Shown: positions 11,546-26,826 of the stretch, piece after piece
Numbering within the stretch: position 1 is the stretch's first letter
How the letters are laid out: every line of letters starts with the position of its first letter
NCBI GenBank assembly: GCA_945876745.1
Contig: CAMCPL010000002.1
Location: 124,001-188,000 of the forward strand
Source: an uncultured Clostridia bacterium
GTDB taxonomy: Bacteria > Bacillota > Clostridia > Oscillospirales > Acutalibacteraceae
DNA length: 64,000 nt
Reading direction: 5' to 3'
The notes under the pieces: generated by a model
Told to the model about the DNA's origin: nothing
Seen by the model: the letters and a program-made list of their open reading frames with translations, nothing else
Databases searched by the model: none
Made by a program: the position numbers and the translations under genes

Positions 11546-14500
11546 ATGAAAAAAACATTGAAAAGAGTTCTCGCGAGCTTGATTGCCGTTATTATGGCGT
11601 TTTCGTCTATGCCGATAACGACATTTGCGGCTAATAAAACTTCGGGAACAGTTCCGTTTGATGCGTCCGGTGTGTTTAAGTATAACGCAAACGCCGACCG
11701 TCTTAACACAAGCCTTTCCGAGGGCTACTATAATGTTTGTAACGACGGTAGCGACAGTAACTTTACTATGGCTTTCTTTAAGTATGATGTGTCGAACATC
11801 AGAAAAGCCGGTATAACCGTGACCTCAGCAAAGTTCGGTATTCAGCTTAGGGGAACTCCGGGAAGCGACTGTCAGGGTCTTACCTTCTCGTATACAACAA
11901 ACGATAAGGCAGACAGCTTTACAAACGGATATGTAAACTCGACCGATCCGCTTATTTTCGGTAGAAACGATGCTCACCTTGCAGGTGCAACCTCGTATTT
12001 CGGCTTGCAGAATATTCAAAGCTTTGCTTATGATTCCGCAACTTGGAAAACGGGCTATACATTCACCGTTAATATCGCCGGTGCGATTAACGCCGCTGTT
12101 GCGCAGGGTAGAGATTATGCTGTAATTATGATTCATCAAACAACCTACGGCGGCAGAGATCAAGCCGGTAAAAACGGCGGAACTAACAGTTGGACTGATA
12201 CAAAGCTCAGATACGGTCCCGTAACCGTTGCTTACGACGGTACTACGAATAACAGTGTCTACAAGATTAAGGAAGTATCGAAGGTCGGCGTTATTGACGG
12301 CACTAACGGTAGCCGTCTTGACAAGACCGGTCAAACGATGAACATTGTAAACGATTCTCAGGACGATAACTTTTCTATCGGCTTTTGGCAGTATGATATC
12401 TCACAGCTTCTTGAGATGAACGCTTACACAAAGACGGCTCAGCTTGTTCTTGATGTCCCGTCAACGCCCGAAAGCGAATGTCAGGGCTTGACGTTCTATT
12501 ACGCGCTCGATCCGGATGCCGAGGGTCTTGTCGACGGTGCAAACTCGCAGCCTGCAGTTATGGGCACAGCAGGAGGACATATTCAAAAAGCGATATCTTA
12601 TTACAATCTTGTTTCGTTCGCAACAGTAGCGAAAGAAAAAATCGTAGTCGGCAACAAGATTTCACTTGATGTTTCAAGTGCTATTAATCATACGCTTTCA
12701 AATAACAGCAGCGTTTTGACTATTATGGTTATGCAGTCTCAGGCAGGCAGCACCGGACAAACTAACGGTTGGACCGATACACGTCTTAGCTACGGCAAAA
12801 ATCCGCTTACCTGCACTATCGACATCAACGTTCCGTCCTTTGAAGCAGGCGTTGAAAGTCTTAATGCCGCTATTACGGCTTATGAAAATAAGATGAGGAA
12901 TATCGGCTCAAGCAACGCTACTCTTTATAGAAATATGGCTAACGCTTACGAGGCTTATATTAAGGCGCTTAGATACCGCGACGCTTATGTATACGGCAAA
13001 AACACCTCCGCATATAATGCAATGCAAACCGTTACCAGCGATTTGATTAAAGCAACCTCGCTTATGATTCCGTGGACTGACGAGGTAACAGGTCAGTACG
13101 AATCCAAGGTGCCTGTTTTCCATAACGATTCATCAACCGATATGGCGGGCTATACCGATTTCTACGGCAATGTATTATATACCGAAACCTGTTCGTCCGG
13201 TAACTACGACAAAACGAACGGCCATACGGACGGTGCTTCCGTACTATTCCAACCGAGAATAGATGTAAGCATTAATGTTCAGCTTTATTATCCTAATACC
13301 GTTTTAGTATATGACGGCTCCTCCAATAAGGCTGTAATTCCTGTTGTTCTTATGGAGAAAAGAACAACAACCGACAATAGATATACTTATACCGTATATC
13401 CTGCCGCAGAGGGCTGTGACTCGACATATACCTCGACTATGGCAGGTATAGATTCCGATTTGATTTCGTTATCAACCGCAAAGGGTGACGGCGCCTATGA
13501 CTTTAGGGGTGGCAGAACAGGTAACGTTCTTTCGTTCACAAGCGCCCGTGCAAATAACACCGACTTAATCGGTACAACTGTCGGCAACCCGTATAAGAGA
13601 GCGGCACAGCCGTATAGCGATATCTTTGGAAGTTGGTGGAACTGCTATGCAACTGCGTTTCAGGTTTCCGACAACATTAAGTTTAACGGCGAGGGCGTTA
13701 AGGAAGTCGGCAAATACTGGGCTTGGTACGGCGGTAGTGACGCAGGCCTTTGCCAGAGTATCGACGCAAATATGCGCGACTATAAGCCGTCACAGCATAA
13801 GATTTATGTAGTAAACTACAAAGAGCTTGCCGATAAAATGAAGGACGCTACCAACCTTTCAAAGCTTATGAGCATCTCCAACTACACAGAGGGCGGAATG
13901 CTTGATGCACTTAAGGGCTATGACCTTGCAACCTCGTTTGATCTTTCCTCAATCACTCTTGCAAATGTTGAGGAAAAGGGCGAGCAGATTAAAGCCGCTA
14001 TTCAGGGAATGAGCAGTGCGATTACCGAGGACAAGAATCTCAGAGCTTATCCGGAGCTTAGAAGCGCAGTTGAAAGCGCAAAGAAGATTTTTGACCAGGG
14101 TAATAAGAATAATGAAAATTATACTGCCGAATCCTGGAGCACATTTGTTACCGCTTATGCAAACGCTACCGAGCATTTTGCAATCCTTTCTGCAAATCCG
14201 TACGATACCGAAGCGGCGTTTGCACTTATTGAGCCTTTGAAAACTGCTCAAAACAACCTCGTTCTTAACAAAGAGGTTGTTGATACCACTCTGCTTCAGT
14301 ATGCTATTGACAATGCAGACGCAGTTGTTGACAACGCAAATTACTTTGTAAGCGGTACAATCCCCGCAAATCTTGCCGCTGTTATTCAGCAGGCTAAAAC
14401 CGATATTTGGACGTCCGAGGCTTACTACGGTCTTGACGCTAAAAAGATTGTAAAAACCGAGGAAAATCAAGCTAAGGTTGACGGCTATGTTAATCAGTTT

Positions 14501-17500
14501 ATTGAGCTTCTTAAGGATGTTATAATAGATACTTCCTCTATTGTTGCAACGTATAATTATTCGCTCGACAGCGCAATTACTGAAGCCGCAAAGTATGAGA
14601 GCAAAAAGGATAATTATTCCAACTATGCAACCTTGCAAACTGCTGTAAACAATGCAGTTGCATATAAGGAAGCGCTTCCGAAAATCAATGCAAAAATTGA
14701 GGGTCAGGCTGCTAACTTAATTAATAACTATATTAACTATGTTGATGCAATCGGCTACGCAATAGCAACTCTTCGTCCCGCATTTAAGCTTGTTGCAAAC
14801 GGCACTATTGCAAATCCGGGAACAGAAACCACAACAAGAATTTATTCGTCCTCAAGACCGAATAACTTCAATTTCTACTGGAAGCATACAACCGATATCG
14901 TATACTTCAAGACGACCCGTGATGCACTTACCGTAAAACTTCCGAAATCGGAGTGGGGTGCATATTGTAAGCAAACCGCAAGCAACTTCGACTTGGTTCT
15001 TGATTCAATTAATATACACGCTCAGGATGTTTCAACCGGCGAGCTTACGAGTGCATATACAACAGGCTGGGGCAACATCAGCGGCTACGGCTTGAGCGCA
15101 ACCCAAAAAACGGAGCATCCTGGTGTTCTGTCCGTTAACAGCAGTAACCTTGAAATTGTTCTTAATAACTTTAAGGTTACAAATTCAACGGGTCAGGCAT
15201 ACGGTGTTGATAAAAACGGCGCAAATGTAACGAATGCAAACTACGACTTCACCGAGGAATTAGGCTCGACTGAAGGTACCGATCCGAGAAGCGGCGGTAT
15301 TTACGCACTTAACGGAACAACAGTATTTAACTCTAATGTTGTAATCACTGCGCCTGTAACATCGGGTGCCCCGAATCTCGACAATATCACATCTGCAAAG
15401 TCAAATCAGCTTGACCTTGCTTCAACAAATACCGAAGTCGGCGTTCTGTATTACTGGAGATACGCAGAAACTCTTGTAAACAGCTGGGCAGGCTACGGAT
15501 ATGATAAGACTCCGCTTAACCTTAAAATCGGTGTAGTAGATCTTTCAACTTTGTTTGACCTTATTTCAGAATGTGAAGACCCAACATTTACCGCCACAGC
15601 GAATAACTATACAACAGCTTCTTGGAACGCATTCTTAAATGCTTTGCAGCTTGCAAATGATGATATGAATTATTCGACGATGTCTTATGAGGATATTGTC
15701 AATGAATGTGACAGAAGATATACAAACCTCTATAACGCAAGAGAAAATCTTCAGGCACCTGCGTCTAACGCAAAGCTCAAGGAAGCTGTGCTTGCCGCAA
15801 AGAGTGCATACGAAAACGACCAACAGAGAATTAAGCCCGAAACCTGGACTGAATTTGAAACGGCATATGAAGCTGCACTTTCAAAGTATCAGGGCATTTA
15901 CAGCGATACAGGCGTGCGTGATTATCCGAAGAGTGAGCAGGCAACTATTGATGCTTTTGCAACAGCTCTTACAGCTGCAATGAGCAAGCTTGCTTATCTT
16001 GTAGACTTCTCACCTGTTGATAACGCAGTAAGCGCACTTGTTACTTCGATTGAAAACAACAAGTATACATCTGCTTCAATGCAGGCGTTGACTCAGGCAA
16101 TCAACAATTTGACCTACTACAAGATGTCGGTTTACGACAGGTCACAGCATTATGACGACGAAACAGATTTCGTTGCCGCACTCAATCAGGAAGCAACCGT
16201 AACAATCCCCGGTTTGAAAGCACTACTTAAGCAGGGTACATACACAACCGAGATTATCGACGCACTCAAGGTTGCAAGAAGAACAAGCTTCTCCGATCCC
16301 GATGCTTATGACCAGGATGTTATCGACAACGCTTTGAATTCGCTTCAGGCATTTGAAAATGTAAGCGTTCTCAATAGACAGATTAGCTGTTATAAGTACA
16401 ACTCGCAGGAAGAGGTTGACGCTGATATTGCAAGCGCGCTTTCGGCTATTAACTTAAAGCAGTATCAGGTAACACTCAACGGTGAGGCTTACGGCACATT
16501 CGATTACGGTACTCAAATTACGGTGCCGTCGCCGACAAATGCCGATATTGATTGGTACTATGCATCATCTTCAACAACCTCATCAACTGCTAAAAAGTAT
16601 CTTACAACAACAGATAGCCTGACCTTTATCGTAAAGGGTAATACCGACCTTACAACAAAGAGGGCGTCTCAAACCGAAACAGTAAAGGTTAGTTACGTAA
16701 ACGGCAGAAGTATGGCGATTACCGATGTTCAGTTCGTTGAGCCGGGTACAACCATTACCGTTCGTTGCGATAATGCACAGAAGATTCCGTTTTACAGCTG
16801 TAACGGCTTTACCGTAAACGGCACACCATATGGCGACGGCGACAGCGTAACTGTAAACGAAAATACGATGATTGTATACACATATGTACTTGTTAAGTCA
16901 ACCTCGTATTCGGTTTACGTTGCCGATATCGCATACAGATATCCTGCCGGTGACGTATTAATTAACGACCTTTCGTATAACGATGAGGTATCGTTCATCG
17001 GTGATAAGTACGGTAATGACGATATGGTATACTCCGTAAACGGTGTTGAAACTGTTGATGCTGGTAACGGAAGATACGGTAATGACAGTGTTTACGCATG
17101 GGTAGAGGTTAACGCTCCCGATGTACAGGCATGGCGTGACGCCGCCGCAGATGAAGAAAACGGAATTATTAATACAAACAGTGAATTCTCGGAAATGGCT
17201 TACAGTACTAACGGTAAGGTAGTTGCTTACGGCCCTGACTATACATTCAGAGTATATAAGGATACAACCTTGTTTGCTCTTGATGAAGCTGCATACAAGG
17301 ATGCAGTTGCAAAGGGTATTGTTACCGAGCCGGGCGACGACAACGGCGCAAGGGTTGACACAAGTGATACTCTTATTATTACACAGGGAGTTAAGTTTGC
17401 TTTCATTTCAACGTTTACACTTCCCGATAACTGCTCAATGGTTGAGTCCGGCTTGCTCTTTGCGGCAAATAAGAATAGCTCGGAAATCCCGACAGTTGAC

Positions 17501-17731
17501 CTCACTCTTGCTAATGCAGATAAAAACGGCATCAAGAGAGTTAAGTCAACCTCCCATACGGCAGGTAATCAGTATGTTGTTTCCGTAAATTCACCGTCGC
17601 TTATCGGCAAGACAGTCGGCGATGTCGGAATTAAGTGGGTTGCATACTTAGTTTATACCGACCCAAGCGGAAATTTAATCACCGTATATTCCGACCCGAA
17701 AACACCGTCGAATTTAACGGATGAATTTTAA
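11546..17731 (+). CDS. giant secreted modular repeat protein A (2061 aa)
   Basis: A very large secreted protein. The signal peptide covers residues 1-29 (basic start, hydrophobic core, cleavage after TFAA). Residues about 35-230 and 240-432 are two related beta-sandwich-like modules, each with an ...SDSNF/QDDNF...FxxYDxS... opening and a GWTDTRLSYG-type ending. They resemble DNRLRE/CBM96-like domains. From about 435 the protein is colinear with giant protein B: helical region, beta domain (about 1085-1335), helical modules with TWxxFxxAYxxA signatures like FIVAR (about 860-930 and 1345-1500), a small beta domain with YGTQITVPSP (about 1640), and a C-terminal region ending TDEF. No LPXTG signal, terminal membrane helix or obvious S-layer repeats were found. 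A glycan- or surface-binding role is inferred. It is followed after 12 nt by a 45-aa peptide gene. Confidence 0.85.
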   Translation: MKKTLKRVLASLIAVIMAFSSMPITTFAANKTSGTVPFDASGVFKYNANADRLNTSLSEGYYNVCNDGSDSNFTMAFFKYDVSNIRKAGITVTSAKFGIQLRGTPGSDCQGLTFSYTTNDKADSFTNGYVNSTDPLIFGRNDAHLAGATSYFGLQNIQSFAYDSATWKTGYTFTVNIAGAINAAVAQGRDYAVIMIHQTTYGGRDQAGKNGGTNSWTDTKLRYGPVTVAYDGTTNNSVYKIKEVSKVGVIDGTNGSRLDKTGQTMNIVNDSQDDNFSIGFWQYDISQLLEMNAYTKTAQLVLDVPSTPESECQGLTFYYALDPDAEGLVDGANSQPAVMGTAGGHIQKAISYYNLVSFATVAKEKIVVGNKISLDVSSAINHTLSNNSSVLTIMVMQSQAGSTGQTNGWTDTRLSYGKNPLTCTIDINVPSFEAGVESLNAAITAYENKMRNIGSSNATLYRNMANAYEAYIKALRYRDAYVYGKNTSAYNAMQTVTSDLIKATSLMIPWTDEVTGQYESKVPVFHNDSSTDMAGYTDFYGNVLYTETCSSGNYDKTNGHTDGASVLFQPRIDVSINVQLYYPNTVLVYDGSSNKAVIPVVLMEKRTTTDNRYTYTVYPAAEGCDSTYTSTMAGIDSDLISLSTAKGDGAYDFRGGRTGNVLSFTSARANNTDLIGTTVGNPYKRAAQPYSDIFGSWWNCYATAFQVSDNIKFNGEGVKEVGKYWAWYGGSDAGLCQSIDANMRDYKPSQHKIYVVNYKELADKMKDATNLSKLMSISNYTEGGMLDALKGYDLATSFDLSSITLANVEEKGEQIKAAIQGMSSAITEDKNLRAYPELRSAVESAKKIFDQGNKNNENYTAESWSTFVTAYANATEHFAILSANPYDTEAAFALIEPLKTAQNNLVLNKEVVDTTLLQYAIDNADAVVDNANYFVSGTIPANLAAVIQQAKTDIWTSEAYYGLDAKKIVKTEENQAKVDGYVNQFIELLKDVIIDTSSIVATYNYSLDSAITEAAKYESKKDNYSNYATLQTAVNNAVAYKEALPKINAKIEGQAANLINNYINYVDAIGYAIATLRPAFKLVANGTIANPGTETTTRIYSSSRPNNFNFYWKHTTDIVYFKTTRDALTVKLPKSEWGAYCKQTASNFDLVLDSINIHAQDVSTGELTSAYTTGWGNISGYGLSATQKTEHPGVLSVNSSNLEIVLNNFKVTNSTGQAYGVDKNGANVTNANYDFTEELGSTEGTDPRSGGIYALNGTTVFNSNVVITAPVTSGAPNLDNITSAKSNQLDLASTNTEVGVLYYWRYAETLVNSWAGYGYDKTPLNLKIGVVDLSTLFDLISECEDPTFTATANNYTTASWNAFLNALQLANDDMNYSTMSYEDIVNECDRRYTNLYNARENLQAPASNAKLKEAVLAAKSAYENDQQRIKPETWTEFETAYEAALSKYQGIYSDTGVRDYPKSEQATIDAFATALTAAMSKLAYLVDFSPVDNAVSALVTSIENNKYTSASMQALTQAINNLTYYKMSVYDRSQHYDDETDFVAALNQEATVTIPGLKALLKQGTYTTEIIDALKVARRTSFSDPDAYDQDVIDNALNSLQAFENVSVLNRQISCYKYNSQEEVDADIASALSAINLKQYQVTLNGEAYGTFDYGTQITVPSPTNADIDWYYASSSTTSSTAKKYLTTTDSLTFIVKGNTDLTTKRASQTETVKVSYVNGRSMAITDVQFVEPGTTITVRCDNAQKIPFYSCNGFTVNGTPYGDGDSVTVNENTMIVYTYVLVKSTSYSVYVADIAYRYPAGDVLINDLSYNDEVSFIGDKYGNDDMVYSVNGVETVDAGNGRYGNDSVYAWVEVNAPDVQAWRDAAADEENGIINTNSEFSEMAYSTNGKVVAYGPDYTFRVYKDTTLFALDEAAYKDAVAKGIVTEPGDDNGARVDTSDTLIITQGVKFAFISTFTLPDNCSMVESGLLFAANKNSSEIPTVDLTLANADKNGIKRVKSTSHTAGNQYVVSVNSPSLIGKTVGDVGIKWVAYLVYTDPSGNLITVYSDPKTPSNLTDEF
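16985..17351 (+). repeat. copy 1 of 367-bp perfect duplicated segment
   Basis: This stretch of giant gene A (codons about 1814-1936) is identical base for base to 25930-26296 of giant gene B, including third codon positions. The sequence on both sides diverges at many synonymous sites. Confidence 0.92.
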
Positions 17732-17743
17732 GGAGGGTTTGAA

Positions 17744-17881
17744 ATGAAAAAGCTTTATTCACAACCTGAATTAGAAATCAGAAAGTACACAATGCTTTCT
17801 AACTCGGTTACTACCTCCGACCCGGCGGTAAATCCGGATAACGACCTTAATAAGGACGACAACGTAGATTACTTTGAATAA
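17744..17881 (+). CDS. 45-aa acidic peptide paired with giant protein A
   Basis: A 45-aa peptide with a consensus AAGGAGGG ribosome-binding site, beginning 12 nt after the giant gene's stop. The N-terminal half is basic to neutral with PELEIRKYTML at residues 8-18. The middle is VTTSDP, and the last 15 residues are acidic (11 of them Asp, Asn or Glu) and end in DYFE. There is no signal peptide and no membrane segment. It differs from the peptide at 26689-26826 at only 4 of 45 residues, with many synonymous changes, which shows that it is a real, selected gene. The leader-plus-short-core appearance recalls ribosomally made peptide precursors, but no modification enzyme lies nearby. The Asp/Asn-rich tail could also bind calcium. 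The function is unknown to me. Confidence 0.85.
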   Translation: MKKLYSQPELEIRKYTMLSNSVTTSDPAVNPDNDLNKDDNVDYFE

Positions 17882-17890
17882 ACAAACACA

Positions 17891-17920
17891 AACGGTCTTG
17901 GGATTTTTCCCAAGACCGTT
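17891..17920 (+). terminator. hairpin after peptide gene
   Basis: A perfect 12-bp stem (AACGGTCTTGGG / CCCAAGACCGTT) with an ATTTTT loop and no U-tract. Probably an mRNA 3' stabilising hairpin or the first part of a tandem terminator. Confidence 0.7.
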
Positions 17921-17941
17921 GTAGCGTGTCGAAAAAGTTAA

Positions 17942-17980
17942 ATTAAAACCGCAGTTCAAAGCCTGCGGTTTTAATTTTTT
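17942..17980. terminator. bidirectional terminator between peptide A and argH
   Basis: A 13-bp stem (ATTAAAACCGCAG / CTGCGGTTTTAAT) followed by TTTTTTA on the plus strand. Its minus strand is also followed by a T-rich run, so it can end argH transcription as well. Confidence 0.85.
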
Positions 17981-19352
17981 ATTTTATAGCATTTCGTGCA
18001 ATTTCAACCTGCTTTAGCACATTTTCGCTGCACGGAGAGCCGACGACCTTTCTGTCGTTTACGCATTTGTCAAGGTTGATAGCCTCGTATACGCCATCGT
18101 CGAATAAATCGCAAATTGCCTTGTATTCGCCAATAGGCAATGTTTCGAGCGTCAGTCCCTTGTCAATGCAAAGTGCAACAAGCTCGCCTGTGCATTTGTA
18201 GGCGTCCCTAAACGCAAGTCCCTTGCCGACGAGATAATCGGCGCAGTCGGTAGCATTTATGAAGCCCTTTGCCGCCGCAAGGCGCATATTGTCCTTTAAT
18301 ACGGTCATTGTATCAATCATCGGTGTGAACGCCGTAAGGCACATTTTAACCGTGTCTACTGCGTCGAATATCGCTTCCTTGTCCTCTTGCATATCCTTGT
18401 TGTATGCGAGCGCAATACCTTTCATAACCGTCAAAAGAGTCGTCAAATCGCCGAATACACGACCGCTTTTTCCTCTTACAAGCTCCGCAATGTCGGGGTT
18501 TTTCTTTTGCGGCATAATTGATGAGCCGGTAGAAAATGCGTCGTCAAGCTCAACAAACTTGAATTCCCAGCTGCACCACATTATAATCTCCTCGCTGAAA
18601 CGGGAGAGATGCACCATAATAAGCGATAACGCCGATGCAAGCTCAATGCAAAAATCCCTGTCCGATACGCCGTCAAGTGAATTTTGAGTAACACCGTCGA
18701 AGCCGAGCAAATCGGCAACCATCTCCCTGTCAAGCGGATATGTCGTTCCTGCCAATGCGCCGGAGCCGAGCGGACAGATGTTCATTCTTTTCTTAACGTC
18801 CCCCAGCCTGTCGATATCCCTCAAAATCATACTGCAATACGCCATAAGATGATGACCGAACGTAATCGGCTGCGCTCTTTGAAGATGTGTGTAGCCGGGC
18901 ATAATGGTTGAGCTGTGCTCCTGCGCCTTGTTGCATAGAACTTCAACAAGTCCTTTTAGTTGCTCACTTATTTCGTCAATCTCCCTGCGAAGCGTGAGAC
19001 GGATATCAAGCGCAACCTGGTCGTTTCTTGACCTTGCTGTGTGAAGTCGCTTGCCTGTCTGACCGAGCCTTGATGTCAGCTCACCCTCAATAAAGGTGTG
19101 AATGTCCTCTGCCGTCATATCAATCGAAAGCTCGCCGCTTTTGATTTCACCGAGAATTTTATCAAGCTCGTTTACGATTTTTTCGCTCTCGCTTTTTTCG
19201 ATAATTCCCGTTGCACCGAGCATTGTTGCGTGTGCTATTGAGCCTTTAATATCCTCCTCAAACATTCTGCTGTCGAAGCCTATTGAGGAGTTGAAATCAT
19301 TTGTTTCCTTTGCAAGCTCTTTTTTGAACCTGCCCTTCCATAGCTGTGCCAT
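17979..19352 (-). CDS. argH: argininosuccinate lyase
   Basis: A 457-aa enzyme of the fumarase/aspartase superfamily that splits argininosuccinate into arginine and fumarate, the last step of arginine synthesis. The signature loop GSSIMPQKKNPD carries the catalytic serine (the second Ser), and HTARSRNDQVA is the second conserved region. TAEDIHTFIEGEL is also typical. Length is normal. It lies 258 nt downstream of argG, a gap filled with palindromic repeats, and the two may be cotranscribed. No separate strong promoter was found. Confidence 0.97.
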   Translation of the reverse strand: MAQLWKGRFKKELAKETNDFNSSIGFDSRMFEEDIKGSIAHATMLGATGIIEKSESEKIVNELDKILGEIKSGELSIDMTAEDIHTFIEGELTSRLGQTGKRLHTARSRNDQVALDIRLTLRREIDEISEQLKGLVEVLCNKAQEHSSTIMPGYTHLQRAQPITFGHHLMAYCSMILRDIDRLGDVKKRMNICPLGSGALAGTTYPLDREMVADLLGFDGVTQNSLDGVSDRDFCIELASALSLIMVHLSRFSEEIIMWCSWEFKFVELDDAFSTGSSIMPQKKNPDIAELVRGKSGRVFGDLTTLLTVMKGIALAYNKDMQEDKEAIFDAVDTVKMCLTAFTPMIDTMTVLKDNMRLAAAKGFINATDCADYLVGKGLAFRDAYKCTGELVALCIDKGLTLETLPIGEYKAICDLFDDGVYEAINLDKCVNDRKVVGSPCSENVLKQVEIARNAIK

Positions 19353-19610
19353 AAATATAGCCTTTCATTATTTAATAAGGCTCCCCTTGTTTTCTCAAGA
19401 GGAGCTATTAGTTTTTCACTCTTCAATTTTCACTTTTCACTCGGCGTAAGCCGTTTTGCCTCCCTTGTTAAAGGGAGGGATTCATTACGGGTCGTTTCTT
19501 AAACAAACCGTAGGGGAGGGTCTCACCTGTCGGTTCGGTCGGAGCTTCTGCATAAATGCAGAGGTGTCCACTGGACACCCGCACCGTCCTCGACCTCCCG
19601 TTAATAATTT
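19353..19610. repeat. palindrome-rich intergenic repeat cluster (argG-argH gap)
   Basis: Contains GGCTCCCCTTG...AAGAGGAGC, CCTCCCTTGTTAAAGGGAGG (a 20-nt palindrome-like unit), a CTGCATAAATGCAG palindrome, and a perfect GGTGTCCA-C-TGGACACC palindrome (19563-19579). No coding sequence is evident. The units resemble the GGGAGC-type repeats at 21057-21191. Confidence 0.6.
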
Positions 19611-20843
19611 TTATTCCTCGTTTCTCTTTTGGTCAAGCAACGCCTTAACCTTTATCGACAAACCGAACAGATTAATAAATCCTGCCGCGTCAGCCTGATT
19701 GTAAGCGCCGCCGTCGTCGCCGAATGAAGCAACATTTTCGTCGTAAAGTGTATATGGTGAGGTGATGCCTGCGTTGATTACATTGCCTTTGTAGAGCTTT
19801 AATTTTACGTCGCCTGTAACCGTCTTTTGTGTTTCGTCAACGAAAGCCGAAAGAGCCTGACGAAGCGGTGTAAACCATAAGCCGTTGTATACAAGCTCGC
19901 CGAATTTTTGAGCTACGAGCTTTTTGTAGTGCTGTGTTTCCTTGTCGAGCGTGATAGTTTCGAGCATATCGTGAGCCTTGTAAAGGATTTCACCGCCCGG
20001 AGTTTCATATACGCCACGCGATTTCATTCCTACAAGACGGTTTTCAACGATGTCGAGAAGACCGATGCCGTTCTCGCCGCCGAGCTTGTTGAGTGTCTCA
20101 ACTATTTTAAGAGGAGACATTTCCTCTCCGTTGATTGCAGTAGGAACGCCCTGCTCAAAATGAATTGTGATGTAGGTTGGCTTGTCGGGTGCCTGTTCTG
20201 GCGATACTCCCATTTCAAGGAAGCCGTCCTTGTTGTACTGCGGCTCGTTTGCCGGATCCTCAAGGTCAAGCCCCTCGTGTGAAAGATGCCATACATTCTT
20301 GTCCTTTGAGTAGTTTGTCTCACGGTTTATTTTAAGCGGAATGTTGTGCGCCTCTGCGTATTCGATTTCCTGCTCACGCGAAACGATATCCCACTCACGC
20401 CACGGTGCAATGATTTCCATTTCGGGTGCAAACGCCTTTAATGTAAGCTCAAAACGTACCTGGTCGTTGCCTTTACCGGTACAGCCGTGACAAATTGCAT
20501 CTGCGCCCTCCTTCTTTGCAATTTCTGCAAGTCCCTTTGCAATGCACGGTCTTGCGTGTGATGTGCCGAGCAAATATTTTTCGTAATCTGCGCCCGCCTT
20601 TAAGCAGGGGAAGATGTAATCGGCAACATATTCCTCTTTGAGGTCAAGAACGTAGAGCTTTGATGCGCCTGTTGCAAGAGCCTTTTCTTCAAGTCCGTCA
20701 AGCTCCGTGCCCTGTCCTACATCACCGCTTACCGCAATAACCTCGCAGTTGTTGTAGTTTTCCTTGAGCCACGGAATGATGATTGATGTATCAAGTCCGC
20801 CGCTGTATGCAAGCACAACCTTTTTAATATCCTTCTTGTCCAT
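19611..20843 (-). CDS. argG: argininosuccinate synthase
   Basis: A 410-aa enzyme that joins citrulline and aspartate with ATP to give argininosuccinate. The N-terminal ATP pyrophosphatase loop is [30 protein letters not shown], the citrulline/aspartate-binding region, and the W-R-EW segment APWREWD follow. Length and order are normal. It is preceded by a promoter at 20883-20910 and by candidate ArgR palindromes at 20925-21006. It is the upstream gene of the argG-argH pair. Confidence 0.97.
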
Positions 20844-20882
20844 AATAAGAACTCCTTTTCGCTTAATTTCGTAACTGTTCCT

Positions 20883-20910
20883 ATTATATCATCATAATTT
20901 GTAATTGCAA
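20883..20910 (-). promoter_or_regulatory. promoter for argG
   Basis: Minus strand: TTGCAA, 16-nt spacer, TATAAT, with the -10 box about 40 nt upstream of the argG ATG. Confidence 0.75.
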
Positions 20911-20924
20911 CCCCTTTTTGTAAA

Positions 20925-21006
20925 TTTATACATAAAATTCAAATATTTCTTAAAAATATAGCCTTATTATGTATACATTACCAATAATTAATGTATATTT
21001 ATACAT
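20925..21006 (-). promoter_or_regulatory. candidate ArgR operator cluster upstream of argG
   Basis: Three copies of the half-site TATACAT: TTTATACAT at 20925, the palindrome ATGTATACAT at 20969-20978, and ATGTATA-TT-TATACAT at 20991-21006. AT-rich palindromes of about this length upstream of arginine genes are typical ARG boxes. Assignment is by position and shape only. Confidence 0.45.
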
Positions 21007-21056
21007 AATAATACCTCTGTCATACATCACCTTATACAAACTTAATCATCTTTTAT

Positions 21057-21191
21057 CCCCTCAGTCGCTAATGCGACAGCTCCCCTTGATTCTCAAATCA
21101 AAGGGAGCCTTATTTTTCAAGACGAAACGCCGTTTACCGAACAAAGGCTCCCTTGTTAAAGGGAGCTGTCGCATTAGCGACTGAGGGATTC
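21057..21191. repeat. 135-bp inverted-repeat (MITE-like) intergenic element
   Basis: A 29-bp left arm (21059-21087) and right arm (21158-21186) are reverse complements with one mismatch, both built around AGCTGTCGCATTAGCGACTG. The left arm runs into an inner hairpin CTCCCCTTGATT...AATCAAAGGGAG. No reading frame is present. Similar GGGAGCTGTCGC repeats occur in many gut Clostridia, from general knowledge. Confidence 0.8.
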
Positions 21192-21535
21192 AATTGACGG
21201 ACGATTAATAATCGTCCCTACGGCAGTTTGAATATTTAATAAGTCGTTTCTTTTTTGCGACTTCTCGTAGCGACGAGCATTGCTCGTCATAAAATTCAAC
21301 CAATATCAAACCGATATAATATGTAATTAATTTATAATAAATTTATATAAGATTAATACATTCTTTATCCTATTTTAATAATCAATTTATAAATAAAACA
21401 ACAGTTTTTTGCTTCAAATTCGTAAAAATGACCGATTTTTGTACAATAATTAAAATCTGTAACACACCCAAATATTAACAATTTATTAATTTTCAAAAAT
21501 TAGTTACAATTTGGAAAAAATGTTATGTAAAAGTA
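21192..21535. other. AT-rich non-coding stretch with two palindromes
   Basis: Holds GGACGATT-AAT-AATCGTCC (21199-21217) and GACGAGCA-T-TGCTCGTC (21272-21288), then about 240 bases of AT-rich sequence with no gene before the promoter of giant gene B. I see nothing coding here. Confidence 0.7.
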
Positions 21536-21564
21536 TTGAACTTTTATTAAAGATATGATATTAT
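21536..21564 (+). promoter_or_regulatory. promoter for giant secreted protein B
   Basis: TTGAAC, 17-nt spacer ending in TGA, then TATTAT (extended -10). The geometry is the same as for giant gene A. The leader is about 150 nt. Confidence 0.75.
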
Positions 21565-21570
21565 CGATTT

Positions 21571-21720
21571 GTATATTAAGGGGTATACTATGTCCAAATT
21601 GGTGCCAAAGAAAGACGGTGCCGCGTATTCAGCTTCGGGCTGTTGGTCAGATACGAAAAACTGAAATTTGGGTTGTAAATCCCTGTTGCAAATTTTATTC
21701 CGAAAGGGGAATGCTTTATT
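21571..21720 (+). ncRNA. structured leader RNA of giant gene B (unidentified)
   Basis: The leader contains a long-range stem CCAAATT (21594-21600) with AATTTGG (21665-21671). This encloses a CGTAT/ATACG stem (21624-21628 and 21651-21655) capped by CAGC-TTCGG-GCTG (21630-21642). A further hairpin, ATTCC/GGAAT (21697-21712), contains the AAAGGGG ribosome-binding site in its loop and 3' arm. The layout suggests a regulatory RNA that could hide the ribosome-binding site. No known riboswitch consensus was recognised, and giant gene A has no such leader. Confidence 0.45.
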
Positions 21721-24700
21721 ATGAAACGCTCATTGAAGCGCACTTTAAGTGTGCTCTTGGCTGTAGTTATGGTAATCAGCGCATTGCCGTTTACAGCTAT
21801 TTCGGCTTTCGCAGAGGAGGATATGTCCACTGAATTGCAGACGGCCATTTCCGACTATGAGGAAGTTATGACAAGAATGACCACTGACAATAAAGTCTAC
21901 AAAAATCTTACTGCCGCTTACGATAGCTACGTAAAGGCAAACAGATATGTAGATGCATATAAATATGGTAAGAAAGATATTACTGCGTCGGAATTTTCGG
22001 CTATGACAACCGAGCTTCGCAATAATACTGCCGCTATGACCGAATGGACTGCCCAAAAGGGTGAATATAAGCAGGGCTTTTCTTCGGGTGATACAGTTCC
22101 GGATGTAACTGCAAACAACAGTATCAATATTCTTTATACAACTCAGACATCCAACTCTGTAGGTACAAGTGAAGGCGGAAATGTTAGAAGAATTATGTAT
22201 TATTCATCTGCCGTACTTCTTTACGACGGTATAACAAAGCCCCGTATGCCTGTTATGATGTCTGCTCAGGTAACAGCAAATAAGACAAGATATCTTTATG
22301 CAGCTTATCCTGTTGCTTCTGATGTAACCGACCCACGTACAATGCAGGCTGCCGTAGACCACTCGGATATTATTCTTATCGGCGGTTGGAGAGGTTGGGA
22401 CGGCACCAACAGAGGTGAAACTCTTGACTGGGGCTGGAACTATCAGCTTGCAGGTAGCCCGACTGCTTATACGGCAGGTGCCGGCTTTGCAGGTCTTGAC
22501 GATACCGGTACAAACGGTGTTCAGTCAACGAGCACTCGTTCAGCTGCGCTTCCTACCGGTATTCTTTCAAGTGCAAAAAAGCTTGTAATGTTCTCGAATG
22601 CGCTTCAGCTTACAGACAGCTTTGCGTTTAACGAGGGCGAATACTACCGTGATATATCAACAAACTGGTATGTATCGACCTCTGCTGATCCTAACTCTGG
22701 TCAGGACGCAGGTATTATCGACCCTACCGCAACAATTACAGTTCTTAACTATAAGGTGCTCATCGACGCTCTTACAGGTACGAAGAAGGCTATCTTTGCT
22801 GACTTCAAGAACTATAAGCAGGGCGGCTTGAAGGCTCTTTGCTCGGCATTCGATACTGCAACAAGCGTTGATATTTCCGATACAACAACCGATAACGTAT
22901 CTGTTAAGGCTCAGCTTATTCAGCTCGCCGTAAACGGTATCAATAATTCAACCAGTCCCACAAAGGATGCAACAGGCTATGCTGCGCTTCGTAAAGCACT
23001 CGACGATACCGCAAAGGTTTACGGCGCAGGTAACACAAATAACGCAAACTACACAGCAGAGACTTGGGGTCCGTTTGAGACTGCCGTTCTCGCTGCACAA
23101 AGCCGTATGGCAAATCTGTATTCAAACGCATACAGCACGTCCGACGCAGATTTGGCACAAGCAGAGGCAACAACTCTTACAAACGCTTTCAATGCGTTGG
23201 TTCTCAACAAGGTACCTGTTGATACAACAAGCCTCGACGTTATTATGTACAACGCTCACGTTATTGCAAAGAATTCAAACTTCTTTACTGCCGAGTCAAT
23301 GGCTGCTTCAAATATCGTAGAGCTTACCCGTCAGGCAAAGATTGCAATTTGGCAGGAGGAGGAAAACTATCCTCTCGAAGCGCAGAAGATTGCAGACTCT
23401 GAGGAATCACGCAGAATCGTTGCTTCCTATGTAGAATCACTCAGTGCCGCAATCAGACTTTGCGTGCTTGACTACGATGCAAATATTGCTCAAATCGGCT
23501 ACTCGCTTACAGGCGCAGTTGCAAAGGGACAGTCCTATGAAGCAACCAAGGACGACTACGGCAACTATGCTATCCTCGACGAGGCTGTTAAGCAGGGTGT
23601 TGCATTTATGGCAAAAGATAACTCCATTGACCCTGAGGTTGCAGAAAACGCACTCAACGTTATCACAGCTTATGCAAACGCAACAAACAACATCATCAAG
23701 GCAGTCAACGGCTTGAAGCCTTCATTTGCAAAGATTTCAAACGGTACAATCGCTAACGAGGGCTATACAGCAACTACAAAGATTGACTCTGCAAGAGCTT
23801 CGGGTGTATGGACGCTTACTTGGAACCGTTCCGACCAAGTTATCTTCTTCAAGACGGTTCGTGAGCAAAGCGTATTCGAGCTTCCTGTATCAAATATGTC
23901 TTTCTACAATGACTGTAAGTATGACGCAATGCTCGACTCAATCAACCTTAACTCCGCAACAGACGTTGCAACAGGTGAGCTTACTGCCGATGTAAACTAT
24001 TTAAGCAGTAATGTATCGCTTAACGCATATGGCGGAATTGCTTCGTATCCGGGTAAAACGGCTATCACAAGCGGTAACCTTGAGCTCAAGCTTGCCGGCA
24101 TTAAGGTAGCTTCATCGAGCGGTTCATCAATCGCAAAGGATATGGCAGGTAATGATATTACCGATATCAATACCGACCTTACCTCGCTTCTTGAGACAAC
24201 AGAGGGTACTTCTCCGATTTCCGGCGGTATTCTTGCAAAGAAGGGTACAACCGAATTTGCCTGCAAGACAACCATTACCGCTCCTCAGGTAACAGGTTCA
24301 ATCAGTGAAGAATCTATTCCGTCTGCAAAGTCCTGTGTATTTGATATTTCTCAAAGTGCTTTGACAATGGGTATGTTCTATTATTGGAAGAGAATGCCTA
24401 CCGGCGCACTTCCTTGTTATGCAGGTTGGTCTTATGATACTGCAAAGTATTCCGAGACAGTATATGTAGTTGATATTTCAACTCTTCTTGCTCTTATCAA
24501 GGAGTGCGAGGCACTTACAGATAATTCCGCTGATTATTCAACAAGCTCATGGAACAACTTCATCGGTGCGCTTTCGGGTGCAAAGGCTGAAATGGACTAT
24601 GCAGGTATGACATACAGCGAAATCGTCGGCGAGTGCGACACAAGATACAACGCTCTTTGGAACGCAAGACAGGCTCTTGTTGCTCCTGCTTCAAACAAGG

Positions 24701-26676
24701 CATTGTCGGAAGCTCTTACAGCAGCAAAGGACGCTTACAACAACGACGAAAGCAAGGTTAAGCCGTCCACCTGGAATGCCTTCAAGGTTGCTTACCAAAA
24801 TGCTCAATCTGCATACCTCGGTAAGTACAACGATACAAATATCCGCAACTACGACAAGACAGACGCAACCGTTATTGCAGAAATCAACGAGCTTGTAACT
24901 GCTCTTAACACTGCAAAGAACAATCTTGTCTATAAGATTGACTTCACTGCTGATGAATTCAACGTTGACGGTGCTGTAGCTTCGCTTATTGCTTCCATTG
25001 CAAACGAGACATACACCGCAACATCTGTTCAGGCTGTTGCAAAGGCTATTTCAACATTGACCTACTACAATATGTCTGCTATCGAAAGAGCAACTCACTA
25101 TATGGACGAGGCTGACGTTGTAGCTGCTGTTAAGGCAGAGGTTATTGAAATTGGTCAGCTTGCTTCACAGCTTGTTGAAGGAACAGTTGACACTGAGGCA
25201 CTTAAGGATGCAAAGGCAGAGGGCAAGTCAAAGCTTTCCGACCCTGACGCATATGACCAAAACGAAATCGCAGAAAAGCTTGCAGCTTTAACCGAATTTG
25301 TTGATGTAAATGTAGCGGGCACAATTATAAGCGCATATAAGTACAATACTCAAGAAGAGCTCGACGCAGACGTAACCGCTGCTTTGTCGAACATCTCGAT
25401 TCAAAAGTATGCAGTATATGTTGACGGCGTTGAAGAGCGCGTATGCGACTACGGTACTCAAATTACCGTTAAGTCCCCGACAGGCGCACAGGTTGACTGG
25501 TACTATGCTTCGGCTTCTACAACTTCAACAACCGCAAACAAGTATTTCACAACCTGCGACGAGGTAACCTTTATCGTTAAGGGCGAAACTCACCTTGAAA
25601 CAAAGAAGGCAAGCGACACCGAAACCGTAAAGGTAACTTATGTAAACAGCATTAATATGAAGAATGTTGACGTACAGTATGTTGCACCGGGCACAGAAAT
25701 AACTCTCTCTGTTGCAAATGCACCGAGCGTAGTATTCTACACCTGCAACGGCATACAGATTAACGGCGCTTCATACAATGACGGCGACACATATGTAGTT
25801 AACGAGAACGTTATCGTTCTTTACACCTACAACCGTACCGTAACACAGTCATACAGCGTTTATGTTGCTGATATCGCATACAGATATCCTGCAGGTAACG
25901 TATTAATCAACGACCTTGCTTACAACGACGAGGTATCGTTCATCGGTGATAAGTACGGTAATGACGATATGGTATACTCCGTAAACGGTGTTGAAACTGT
26001 TGATGCTGGTAACGGAAGATACGGTAATGACAGTGTTTACGCATGGGTAGAGGTTAACGCTCCCGATGTACAGGCATGGCGTGACGCCGCCGCAGATGAA
26101 GAAAACGGAATTATTAATACAAACAGTGAATTCTCGGAAATGGCTTACAGTACTAACGGTAAGGTAGTTGCTTACGGCCCTGACTATACATTCAGAGTAT
26201 ATAAGGATACAACCTTGTTTGCTCTTGATGAAGCTGCATACAAGGATGCAGTTGCAAAGGGTATTGTTACCGAGCCGGGCGACGACAACGGCGCAAAGGT
26301 TGACACGAGTGATGAGCTTGTTATTACGGAAGGCGTTAAGTTTGCCATTATTTCTAACTTCACGGTTCCTGAAAACTGCAAAATGGTAGAAACAGGTATT
26401 CTCTTCGCTGCTAACAAGAACAGCTCCGACATTCCTACAGTAGACCTTACTCTCGGCAATGCCGGCACAAACGGTATCCTCAGAGTTAAGTCAACTGCTC
26501 ATACACCGGGTAATCAGTATGTTATCTCCATTAACACTCCGAAAATCGCAGGCAATAAGGTCGGCGAAGTAGGAATGAAGTGGGTAGCATATATGACCTA
26601 CACCGACAAGGACGGAAATATGATTACCGTATACTCCGATCCTACATCTCCGACAAACACAACTGATACATTCTAA
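21721..26676 (+). CDS. giant secreted modular repeat protein B (1651 aa)
   Basis: A paralogue of giant protein A, without the two N-terminal beta-sandwich modules. The signal peptide covers residues 1-31 (cleavage after SAFA). A helical region follows at about 36-110 (YEEVMTRM...YDSYVKANRYVDAYKYG), then a beta-rich domain with LLYDGITKPRMPV-type text. FIVAR-like helical modules occur near residues 425-505 and 930-1080 (TWGPFETAVLAA, TWNAFKVAYQNAQ). The beta domain is at about 675-925, and the YGTQITVKSP domain lies near 1235. The C-terminal region from residue 1404 aligns with protein A without any indel (constant offset of 410 residues) and ends TDTF. No cell-wall sorting signal or terminal membrane helix is seen, so it is probably secreted or non-covalently surface-bound. 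A 45-aa peptide gene follows after 12 nt. Confidence 0.85.
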   Translation: MKRSLKRTLSVLLAVVMVISALPFTAISAFAEEDMSTELQTAISDYEEVMTRMTTDNKVYKNLTAAYDSYVKANRYVDAYKYGKKDITASEFSAMTTELRNNTAAMTEWTAQKGEYKQGFSSGDTVPDVTANNSINILYTTQTSNSVGTSEGGNVRRIMYYSSAVLLYDGITKPRMPVMMSAQVTANKTRYLYAAYPVASDVTDPRTMQAAVDHSDIILIGGWRGWDGTNRGETLDWGWNYQLAGSPTAYTAGAGFAGLDDTGTNGVQSTSTRSAALPTGILSSAKKLVMFSNALQLTDSFAFNEGEYYRDISTNWYVSTSADPNSGQDAGIIDPTATITVLNYKVLIDALTGTKKAIFADFKNYKQGGLKALCSAFDTATSVDISDTTTDNVSVKAQLIQLAVNGINNSTSPTKDATGYAALRKALDDTAKVYGAGNTNNANYTAETWGPFETAVLAAQSRMANLYSNAYSTSDADLAQAEATTLTNAFNALVLNKVPVDTTSLDVIMYNAHVIAKNSNFFTAESMAASNIVELTRQAKIAIWQEEENYPLEAQKIADSEESRRIVASYVESLSAAIRLCVLDYDANIAQIGYSLTGAVAKGQSYEATKDDYGNYAILDEAVKQGVAFMAKDNSIDPEVAENALNVITAYANATNNIIKAVNGLKPSFAKISNGTIANEGYTATTKIDSARASGVWTLTWNRSDQVIFFKTVREQSVFELPVSNMSFYNDCKYDAMLDSINLNSATDVATGELTADVNYLSSNVSLNAYGGIASYPGKTAITSGNLELKLAGIKVASSSGSSIAKDMAGNDITDINTDLTSLLETTEGTSPISGGILAKKGTTEFACKTTITAPQVTGSISEESIPSAKSCVFDISQSALTMGMFYYWKRMPTGALPCYAGWSYDTAKYSETVYVVDISTLLALIKECEALTDNSADYSTSSWNNFIGALSGAKAEMDYAGMTYSEIVGECDTRYNALWNARQALVAPASNKALSEALTAAKDAYNNDESKVKPSTWNAFKVAYQNAQSAYLGKYNDTNIRNYDKTDATVIAEINELVTALNTAKNNLVYKIDFTADEFNVDGAVASLIASIANETYTATSVQAVAKAISTLTYYNMSAIERATHYMDEADVVAAVKAEVIEIGQLASQLVEGTVDTEALKDAKAEGKSKLSDPDAYDQNEIAEKLAALTEFVDVNVAGTIISAYKYNTQEELDADVTAALSNISIQKYAVYVDGVEERVCDYGTQITVKSPTGAQVDWYYASASTTSTTANKYFTTCDEVTFIVKGETHLETKKASDTETVKVTYVNSINMKNVDVQYVAPGTEITLSVANAPSVVFYTCNGIQINGASYNDGDTYVVNENVIVLYTYNRTVTQSYSVYVADIAYRYPAGNVLINDLAYNDEVSFIGDKYGNDDMVYSVNGVETVDAGNGRYGNDSVYAWVEVNAPDVQAWRDAAADEENGIINTNSEFSEMAYSTNGKVVAYGPDYTFRVYKDTTLFALDEAAYKDAVAKGIVTEPGDDNGAKVDTSDELVITEGVKFAIISNFTVPENCKMVETGILFAANKNSSDIPTVDLTLGNAGTNGILRVKSTAHTPGNQYVISINTPKIAGNKVGEVGMKWVAYMTYTDKDGNMITVYSDPTSPTNTTDTF
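25930..26296 (+). repeat. copy 2 of 367-bp perfect duplicated segment
   Basis: Identical to 16985-17351 (codons about 1404-1526 of giant gene B). The distance between the copies is 8945 bp, the same as the distance between the two peptide genes. Confidence 0.92.
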
Positions 26677-26688
26677 GGAGGGAACAAA

Positions 26689-26826
26689 ATGAGAAAACTA
26701 TATACTCATCCTGAATTAGAAATCAGGAAGTACACAATGCTTGCAAACTCGGTTACTACATCAGATCCGGCAGTAAATCCGGATAACGACCTTAATAAGG
26801 ACGATAATGTAGACTACTTCGAGTAA
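26689..26826 (+). CDS. 45-aa acidic peptide paired with giant protein B
   Basis: A 45-aa peptide with an AAGGAGGG ribosome-binding site, starting 12 nt after the stop of giant gene B. It differs from the peptide at 17744-17881 only at residues 2, 6, 7 and 19 (K/R, S/T, Q/H, S/A), while the DNA carries many silent differences, so the protein sequence is under selection. PELEIRKYTML and the acidic Asp/Asn-rich tail ending DYFE are unchanged. No signal peptide, membrane helix or cysteine is present. Function unknown; see the paired entry. Confidence 0.85.
   Translation: MRKLYTHPELEIRKYTMLANSVTTSDPAVNPDNDLNKDDNVDYFE

Follow-up and report, generated by a model that had tools for sequence, protein, structure and literature searches.

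Small peptide genes behind giant secreted proteins in uncultured Clostridia as predicted precursors of a linear polyphosphorylated-type peptide family

What is made from two 45-residue genes that each stand directly behind a gene for a giant secreted-type protein, and what ties the small product to the large one? The question is raised by a 64,000-nucleotide (nt) stretch of DNA from an uncultured Clostridia bacterium of the Acutalibacteraceae (contig CAMCPL010000002.1, positions 124,001 to 188,000), here called the window. At a probability of roughly 80%, the small genes encode precursors of a ribosomally synthesized and post-translationally modified peptide (RiPP) of the linear polyphosphorylated peptide (LPP) type, with the precursor gene coupled to that of a giant protein. 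A modified peptide precursor had been one of several guesses listed in an original prediction from the DNA letters, and it is the one favoured by the evidence. The arrangement is real and recurrent through the genus; its enzyme types put it in the LPP kind, and its gene organisation is new. The features of the locus are as follows, coordinates being positions in the window.

11546..17731, + strand: giant 1, 2061 aa, an open reading frame (ORF) with an N-terminal signal-peptide-like sequence
17378..17713, + strand: C-terminal immunoglobulin (Ig)-like domain (CTD) of giant 1, profile A2, E 7.2e-32, the sequence itself being among the 28 A2 rows
17744..17881, + strand: peptide 1, 45 aa, predicted LPP-type precursor, an ORF 12 nt after giant 1 and a row of the family profile A1
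17744..17809, + strand: predicted leader of peptide 1, residues 1-22, with a YxxPEL motif, from alignments and parts of PMC13381572
17810..17878, + strand: predicted core of peptide 1, residues 23-45, Ser25 being core position 3 and the predicted phosphorylation site
21721..26676, + strand: giant 2, 1651 aa, an ORF that aligns with giant 1 as its paralogue
26320..26661, + strand: CTD of giant 2, profile A2, E 3.9e-36, itself an A2 row, with an AlphaFold2 model
26689..26826, + strand: peptide 2, 45 aa, predicted LPP-type precursor, an ORF 12 nt after giant 2
26689..26754, + strand: predicted leader of peptide 2
26755..26823, + strand: predicted core of peptide 2, with the same amino acids as core 1 despite 9 silent codon differences

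The gap between giant and peptide gene is 12 nt in both pairs, as had been claimed, and a GGAGG before each peptide gene overlaps or touches the stop codon of the preceding giant. Coupling of peptide and giant in translation is the best supported reading of the gene order, and coupling in transcription is probable. The two peptide genes show 12 silent and 4 replacing codon differences (46 codons, stop included; dN 0.038, dS 0.88), and the earlier observation of four changed residues amid many silent changes thus stands. The giants, the signal peptides of which were assessed by eye, are 48% identical across 1621 aligned residues. Neither the giants nor the peptides have a Pfam or NCBIfam match at E<=1, so that the FIVAR label formerly attached to the giants had to be given up. 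Against solved structures, giant 2 returned a single row at E 0.43, a profile of the last 270 residues a single row at E 0.83, and the peptide profile zero matches at E<=10. A tract of 367 nt is identical between the giants (16985-17351 and 25930-26296) amid flanking blocks of about 71-74% nucleotide identity, and it looks like a recent gene-conversion tract.

The peptide family extends through the genus. With peptide 1 as query at E<=1, matches were obtained in 50 of 98 genomes, 46 of them among the 60 of the genus (with the window's own counted) and 4 among the 38 from outside it, and a profile search found the family in 32 of 37 same-genus genomes, with up to 15 precursor matches in a single one (G020; G and L numbers denote the genomes and loci compared, C a contig, and G000 the window's own genome). 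Among the 116 places listed for the peptide 1 query, 84 were examined with their surroundings. A same-strand ORF ends 12-36 nt upstream of the peptide in 59 of the 84; 43 of these ORFs are complete and at least 750 aa long, 15 run off the contig and one has 209 aa. The majority of homologues therefore lie behind large genes, and a distribution mostly away from giants did not occur. Apart from the stand-alone copies described below, the remaining 11 places represent a contig edge, a larger gap, an unrelated or opposite-strand gene upstream, or a spurious match (G074). All five G000 peptides with a readable upstream region follow a signal-peptide-like protein of 1216-2061 aa by 12-20 nt, and the upstream sequence of the sixth is masked. 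A 1358-aa frame at G000 C12 that appeared to fuse peptide and giant was rejected as an artefact of masked N.

The proteins upstream have their C-terminal domain in common. Profile A2 was built from the last ~110 residues of 28 upstream ORFs; at E<=1e-3 it matches 58 of the full set of 59, including 30 of the 31 that had not gone into it. When the domain was searched over 60 genomes and its places (E<=1e-10) were paired with the peptide matches listed, which reach to about E 3e-4, at least 64 of 88 had a same-strand peptide match within 250 nt downstream, and none of the 88 had one upstream or on the opposite strand, confirming that the coupling exceeds chance. AlphaFold2 predicts the last 270 residues of giant 2 as containing an Ig-like beta sandwich (mean pLDDT, the confidence score of the model, 84, and >80 throughout the CTD). 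Nine large or secreted proteins before peptides in other families were also tested, and those of L175, L188, L222 and, weakly, L204 match the CTD at E<=0.01.

Within the 48-row family alignment, which preceded our knowledge of the LPP paper, the near-invariant residues besides Met1 are Tyr5 (47/48), Pro8 (47/48) and Ser25 (46/48). Taking the first Ser at 15 or more residues from the Tyr, the spacing is 19-21 in 52 of 84 peptides and 15-17 in 27, an earlier Ser being counted in the latter. Core identity of at least 70% was found in 13 of 46 within-genome paralogue pairs versus 12 of 600 random between-genome pairs; mean leader identity was similar within (0.44) and between (0.41) genomes in an ungapped comparison, which underrates the leaders of pairs with indels. 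Counting towards the anchor Ser, 13 pairs from among the most similar agree in 6/13 at position -5, 9/13 at -4, 13/13 at -3, then 11/13 and 13/13, and in 13/13 at the Ser itself. Such a step, at about position -3, is consistent with a boundary between leader and core.

Codon differences tell the two parts apart as well. Six pairs (G000, G001, G002, G007, G038 and G051) have leaders free of indels; their leaders show 43 silent and 40 replacing differences, their cores 52 and 7 (p 3e-6). The window pair has cores identical at 23/23 residues with its 9 silent changes, the G007 pair at 24/24 with 7, and the G006 pair at 25/25 with 10 silent codon changes next to leaders that are 36% identical. Silent changes in identical cores speak for selection acting on the core and make a very recent gene conversion less likely; the G031 pair has zero silent changes and may be a recent copy. 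Further paralogues in the same genomes carry different cores, so that several core types occur per genome, and cores vary between genomes.

Recently, LPP were described as a RiPP family, with LppA, LppB, LppK, LppS, LppD and LppN of Paenibacillus alginolyticus (PMC13381572, Nat Commun, May 2026; all statements on LPP here refer to parts of that article without its supplements). The precursors have 35-200 aa, an N-terminal YxxP and a variable C terminus. LppB binds LppA via Y-16 and P-13, LppK adds one to four phosphates to the precursor at core Ser3, the sole phosphorylation site of LppA, and the SipW-like LppS cleaves after T-1; LPP are made without a cyclase (PMC13381572). Tyr5 and Pro8 of the window family match Y-16 and P-13, and Ser25 is the probable counterpart of the phosphorylated S3. 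More generally, W/Y/LxxP/L/I recognition sequences have been reported for many groups of the RiPP recognition element (RRE), as part of PMC12710340 states. The likeness covers a small YxxP precursor, a discrete PqqD-type RRE, an HprK-like kinase, a SipW-like peptidase, an MsbA-like exporter and an NTP transferase, and no B2 peptidase was found, as in LPP. Even the Ser-His spacing of 39 in LppS (S29/H68) recurs in the L154 peptidase (S25/H64, counted by hand). The original prediction had known of no described system of this shape; the peptide half turns out to be described as LPP, and for the coupling of precursor and giant no description was found in the literature searched, including the parts of PMC13381572 used.

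Candidate enzymes of each type are present in G000. Three 88-aa PqqD-type RREs exceed the Pfam cut-off (C2, C6 and C7; PF05402 E 2e-16, 1.4e-16 and 2.5e-20). By hand count, the peptide-binding residues N33, Y60, V67, D70 and F74 of LppB correspond with a constant offset to N35, Y62, V69, D72 and F76 in RRE 1, while RRE 2 has Ile at 76 and RRE 3 has Ala at 72. The HprK-like kinase at C10 (profile E 1.1e-76; named-family matches only weak) is 42% identical to that of L129, 86% to that of L207 (uncultured Eubacterium sp.) and 75% to that of L223 (Candidatus Eubacterium faecigallinarum). The SipW-like peptidase at C6 (profile E 4.4e-37, 37% identical to that of L129) matches NCBIfam signal peptidase I at 1.2e-6 and SipW at 4e-4, both below cut-offs, and it adjoins an ABC exporter that is 51% identical to that of L129. 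Four NTP_transf_5 (PF14907) proteins are encoded, one of them adjoining an RRE.

These gene types stand side by side in other families. L129 carries in a row a 1256-aa large secreted protein with fn3, a 44-aa YxxP peptide, kinase, RRE, peptidase, exporter and NTP_transf_5; comparable orders, with variations, occur in L145, L175, L188 (Acetivibrio alkalicellulosi DSM 17461), L203, L204, L216, L219, L220, L222 and L230, and L136 has a peptide match close to kinase, RRE and peptidase. Among the best 80, named, of 573 loci found through the kinase, an RRE occurs in at least 62, the peptidase in at least 45 and a peptide profile match in at least 12, these counts being lower bounds because many of the loci are short.

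Enzymes and peptides also keep company across genomes. Peptide, RRE over cut-off and CTD share one distribution over the 37 genus genomes: all three occur in an identical set of 32, and all three are missing from the other five (G004, G014, G018, G021 and G034), three of which have a PqqD match below cut-off in a frame of 474-524 aa. Standalone RREs number from one (G017) to four in each of the 32. The kinase occurs in 30 of the 32 (not in G003 and G017) and the peptidase in 31 (not in G013), and both are found in 0/5 of the system-less genomes. NTP_transf_5 is present in 37/37; the system-less five have a single copy apiece, the others two to five. Peptide and kinase were also compared in 23 order-level genomes from other families: both occur in six (G067, G073, G075, G077, G081 and G082), peptide only in one (G064), kinase only in two (G061 and G072) and neither in 14 (Fisher p 0.0017); for peptide and standalone RRE the respective counts are 6, 1, 3 and 13 (p 0.005), relatedness being uncorrected in both tests. 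Radical-SAM maturation was rejected as an alternative modification, since 55 of 60 genomes, the five system-less ones among them, encode SPASM proteins, the distribution of which thus does not follow that of the peptide.

It is therefore proposed that the leader (about residues 1-22, YxxPEL...) would be bound by the small PqqD-type RRE, and that the HprK-like kinase would phosphorylate the near-invariant Ser25, to which NTP_transf_5 proteins may add. The SipW-like peptidase would cut about before Thr23, and the MsbA-like ABC exporter would release the acidic 23-residue core. As the final cistron, the precursor gene follows that of a giant secreted protein carrying an Ig-like CTD, so that the two products are probably synthesized jointly and may cooperate at the cell surface. 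While the gene family, its coupling, the presence and co-occurrence of the enzyme types and selection on the core can be read from the genomes compared, phosphorylation, cleavage site, export and a functional link to the giant are predictions from likeness to LPP and from gene order.

Several observations weigh against this proposal or parts of it. The LPP leader consensus YxxPxVLxHQxIxFETxxS is kept only partly, in YxxP and Ser and not in HQ and FET, and the Tyr-Ser spacing is 18 in LPP and mostly 19-21 here. The 13 same-core pairs were drawn from the most similar of the 46 within-genome pairs, and the anchor Ser is a regular-expression choice that is uncertain in the CTxPS-type peptides of G002, G007, G038 and G051. 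In phmmer, G000 RRE 1 scores higher with the lasso RRE TbiB1 (32.6 bits) than with LppB (21.1) and PbaB1 (19.6), and RRE 1 is therefore not assigned to the LPP RRE clade. The five genomes without the system possibly form a single clade, in which case the co-occurrence in the genus may amount to a single event, and the order-level peptide matches in G064 and G073 are weak (E 0.002-0.003). Moreover, the LPP family was found through gene clustering (PMC13381572) and its core genes lie with the precursor, whereas the enzyme genes of G000 are scattered and clusters are met in other families (L129, L145, L175, L188). As clustering is here regarded as a matter of organisation and not of chemistry, the window peptides are called LPP-type and not proven LPPs.

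The tie between peptide and giant has its own exceptions. Eleven of the 84 peptides are stand-alone copies behind a gene of 351-359 aa, at a gap of 104-368 nt; this gene is presumably mnmA, judging from four sequences (G007, G038, G003 and G006). Three further peptides (G015, G001 and G057) lie beside one kind of ~440-aa lipoprotein-like gene. Conversely, two of the six CTD proteins of G000 (C5:29117 and C8:39222) lack a peptide gene downstream and end near an apparent terminator hairpin, judged by eye. One upstream ORF of the 59 (G005 C21) is without a CTD match, as are the 1216-aa protein before the G000 peptide at C5:93793 (L127) and, at E<=0.01, the proteins before the peptides of L129, L203, L216, L220 and L230. 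A strict functional link is weakened by the stand-alone precursors and the peptide-less CTD proteins; of the original idea of a dedicated partner, the coupling holds across the genus and the exclusiveness does not.

The same exceptions bear on other explanations of the small genes. That the core is a secreted, pheromone-like signal, a species-specific message for which the giant is merely a convenient expression partner, would suit both the stand-alone copies and the excess of shared cores within genomes. It would leave the coupling to one type of giant unexplained, other paralogues in the same genome carry different cores, and no receptor or regulator was recognised in the neighbourhoods examined, though no search was aimed at one; the signal is considered unlikely. 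More improbable still is an unmodified accessory peptide, acting as cytoplasmic chaperone, secretion cue or Ca2+-binding partner of the giant with no RiPP involved. The tight coupling in 59 of 84 places and the acidic C-terminal half of the peptide are what such a partner would show, but stand-alone copies share the core of a giant-linked copy in several genomes, the YxxP motif is of the RRE type, and RRE, kinase and peptidase co-occur with the peptide. Hitchhiking, in which a functionless small ORF is carried along as giants duplicate, is hardly credible: the window giants are indeed paralogues, yet dN/dS is about 0.04, the cores hold 52 silent versus 7 replacing differences, and stand-alone copies persist.

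A lasso peptide precursor, with the YxxP leader feeding a B1/B2/C pathway, draws support from the discrete lasso-like RREs, from TbiB1 as the best solved match and from a distant relative (G193, L128) beside lasso-type genes. The paeninodin- and pseudomycoidin-type lasso peptides, as far as described in the parts of PMC9266682 and PMC5067487 used, share a leader-binding RRE and an HprK-like kinase, and in pseudomycoidin an NTP transferase; their kinase acts on a C-terminal Ser, and G000 differs in that no B2 peptidase and no clear cyclase were found. The B2 family PF13471 has no match in G000 at E<=1e-3, and the two among the 37 genus genomes at that threshold, one over cut-off, lie in frames of 403 and 437 aa. 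The sole full-length Asn_synthase protein of G000, 607 aa, begins MCGIAG like an ordinary AsnB, the second match being partial (35 positions in a 422-aa frame). A lasso product is thus very improbable. For the SynChlorMet cassette (TIGR04249 ScmC, TIGR04248 ScmD), kinase and RREs match weakly, all far below the curated cut-offs.

With an LPP-type precursor preferred, the coupling to giants still calls for an account. Tentatively, and with more doubt than belief, the mature phosphorylated core could be a working part of the surface, bound by or attached to the Ig-like CTD of the giants and perhaps of other surface proteins too, serving as a species-specific tag or assembly cofactor and not as a free antibiotic or signal. 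The biological role of LPP is unknown according to its authors (PMC13381572), and the genus offers a concrete, testable partner for the peptides, as one precursor gene after another is linked there to a large secreted protein with the shared CTD. This linkage hints at peptide function and is a plausible clue to it, and some of the paralogues have a predicted core that is constant within a genome and not between species. An LPP-type family is thereby tied to the cell-surface biology of uncultured Clostridia, and unannotated ORFs of 35-55 aa become predicted substrates of a known pathway. Capsule loci in Bacilli are frequent LPP neighbours, and the words 'Clostridia' and 'SLH' are absent from the main text (PMC13381572). 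LPP clusters hold one to three precursors, whereas the genus has many scattered copies, most of those examined behind large secreted proteins. New with respect to the parts of that article are the multi-copy dispersed precursors, their coupling to CTD-bearing ORFs, and the identical or nearly identical cores with diverging leaders in part of the within-genome pairs.

Sharing of core sequence with neighbouring proteins was rare. Core 6-mers are shared in 2 of 100 loci, L178 and L230 (shuffles: mean 0.06, maximum 1), and core 5-mers in 2 loci, where shuffles give 1.15 on average and 4 at most, which is no excess and gives no general rule. In both loci, from Oscillospiraceae, a neighbouring secreted protein, surface-layer-like by eye, bears the C-terminal sequence of the peptide at or near its end, a hint that the peptide tail may work at the cell surface.

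Some further loci deserve mention. By eye, L128 (G193) holds side by side genes for an Asn synthetase-like protein, a W-motif precursor, a B2-like protein, an RRE and a radical-SAM-like protein, together with two further YxxP-type peptides that have HprK-like and peptidase-like genes. At L134 (4914-6531), about 2-3 kb from one G000 pair of RRE and NTP_transf_5, a cysteine-rich 48-aa peptide, which we take to be SCIFF-like, precedes a 464-aa radical-SAM-like protein. Contigs labelled as planctomycete-group metagenome-assembled genomes (L179, L196, L231 and L245) carry kinase, RRE and peptidase together and are possibly mis-binned. The genus member G031 has on its contig C1 (L150) a second, clustered set of NTP_transf_5, kinase, peptidase, ABC exporter and RRE, which lies beside a 133-aa ORF with a peptide-like beginning and a much greater length.

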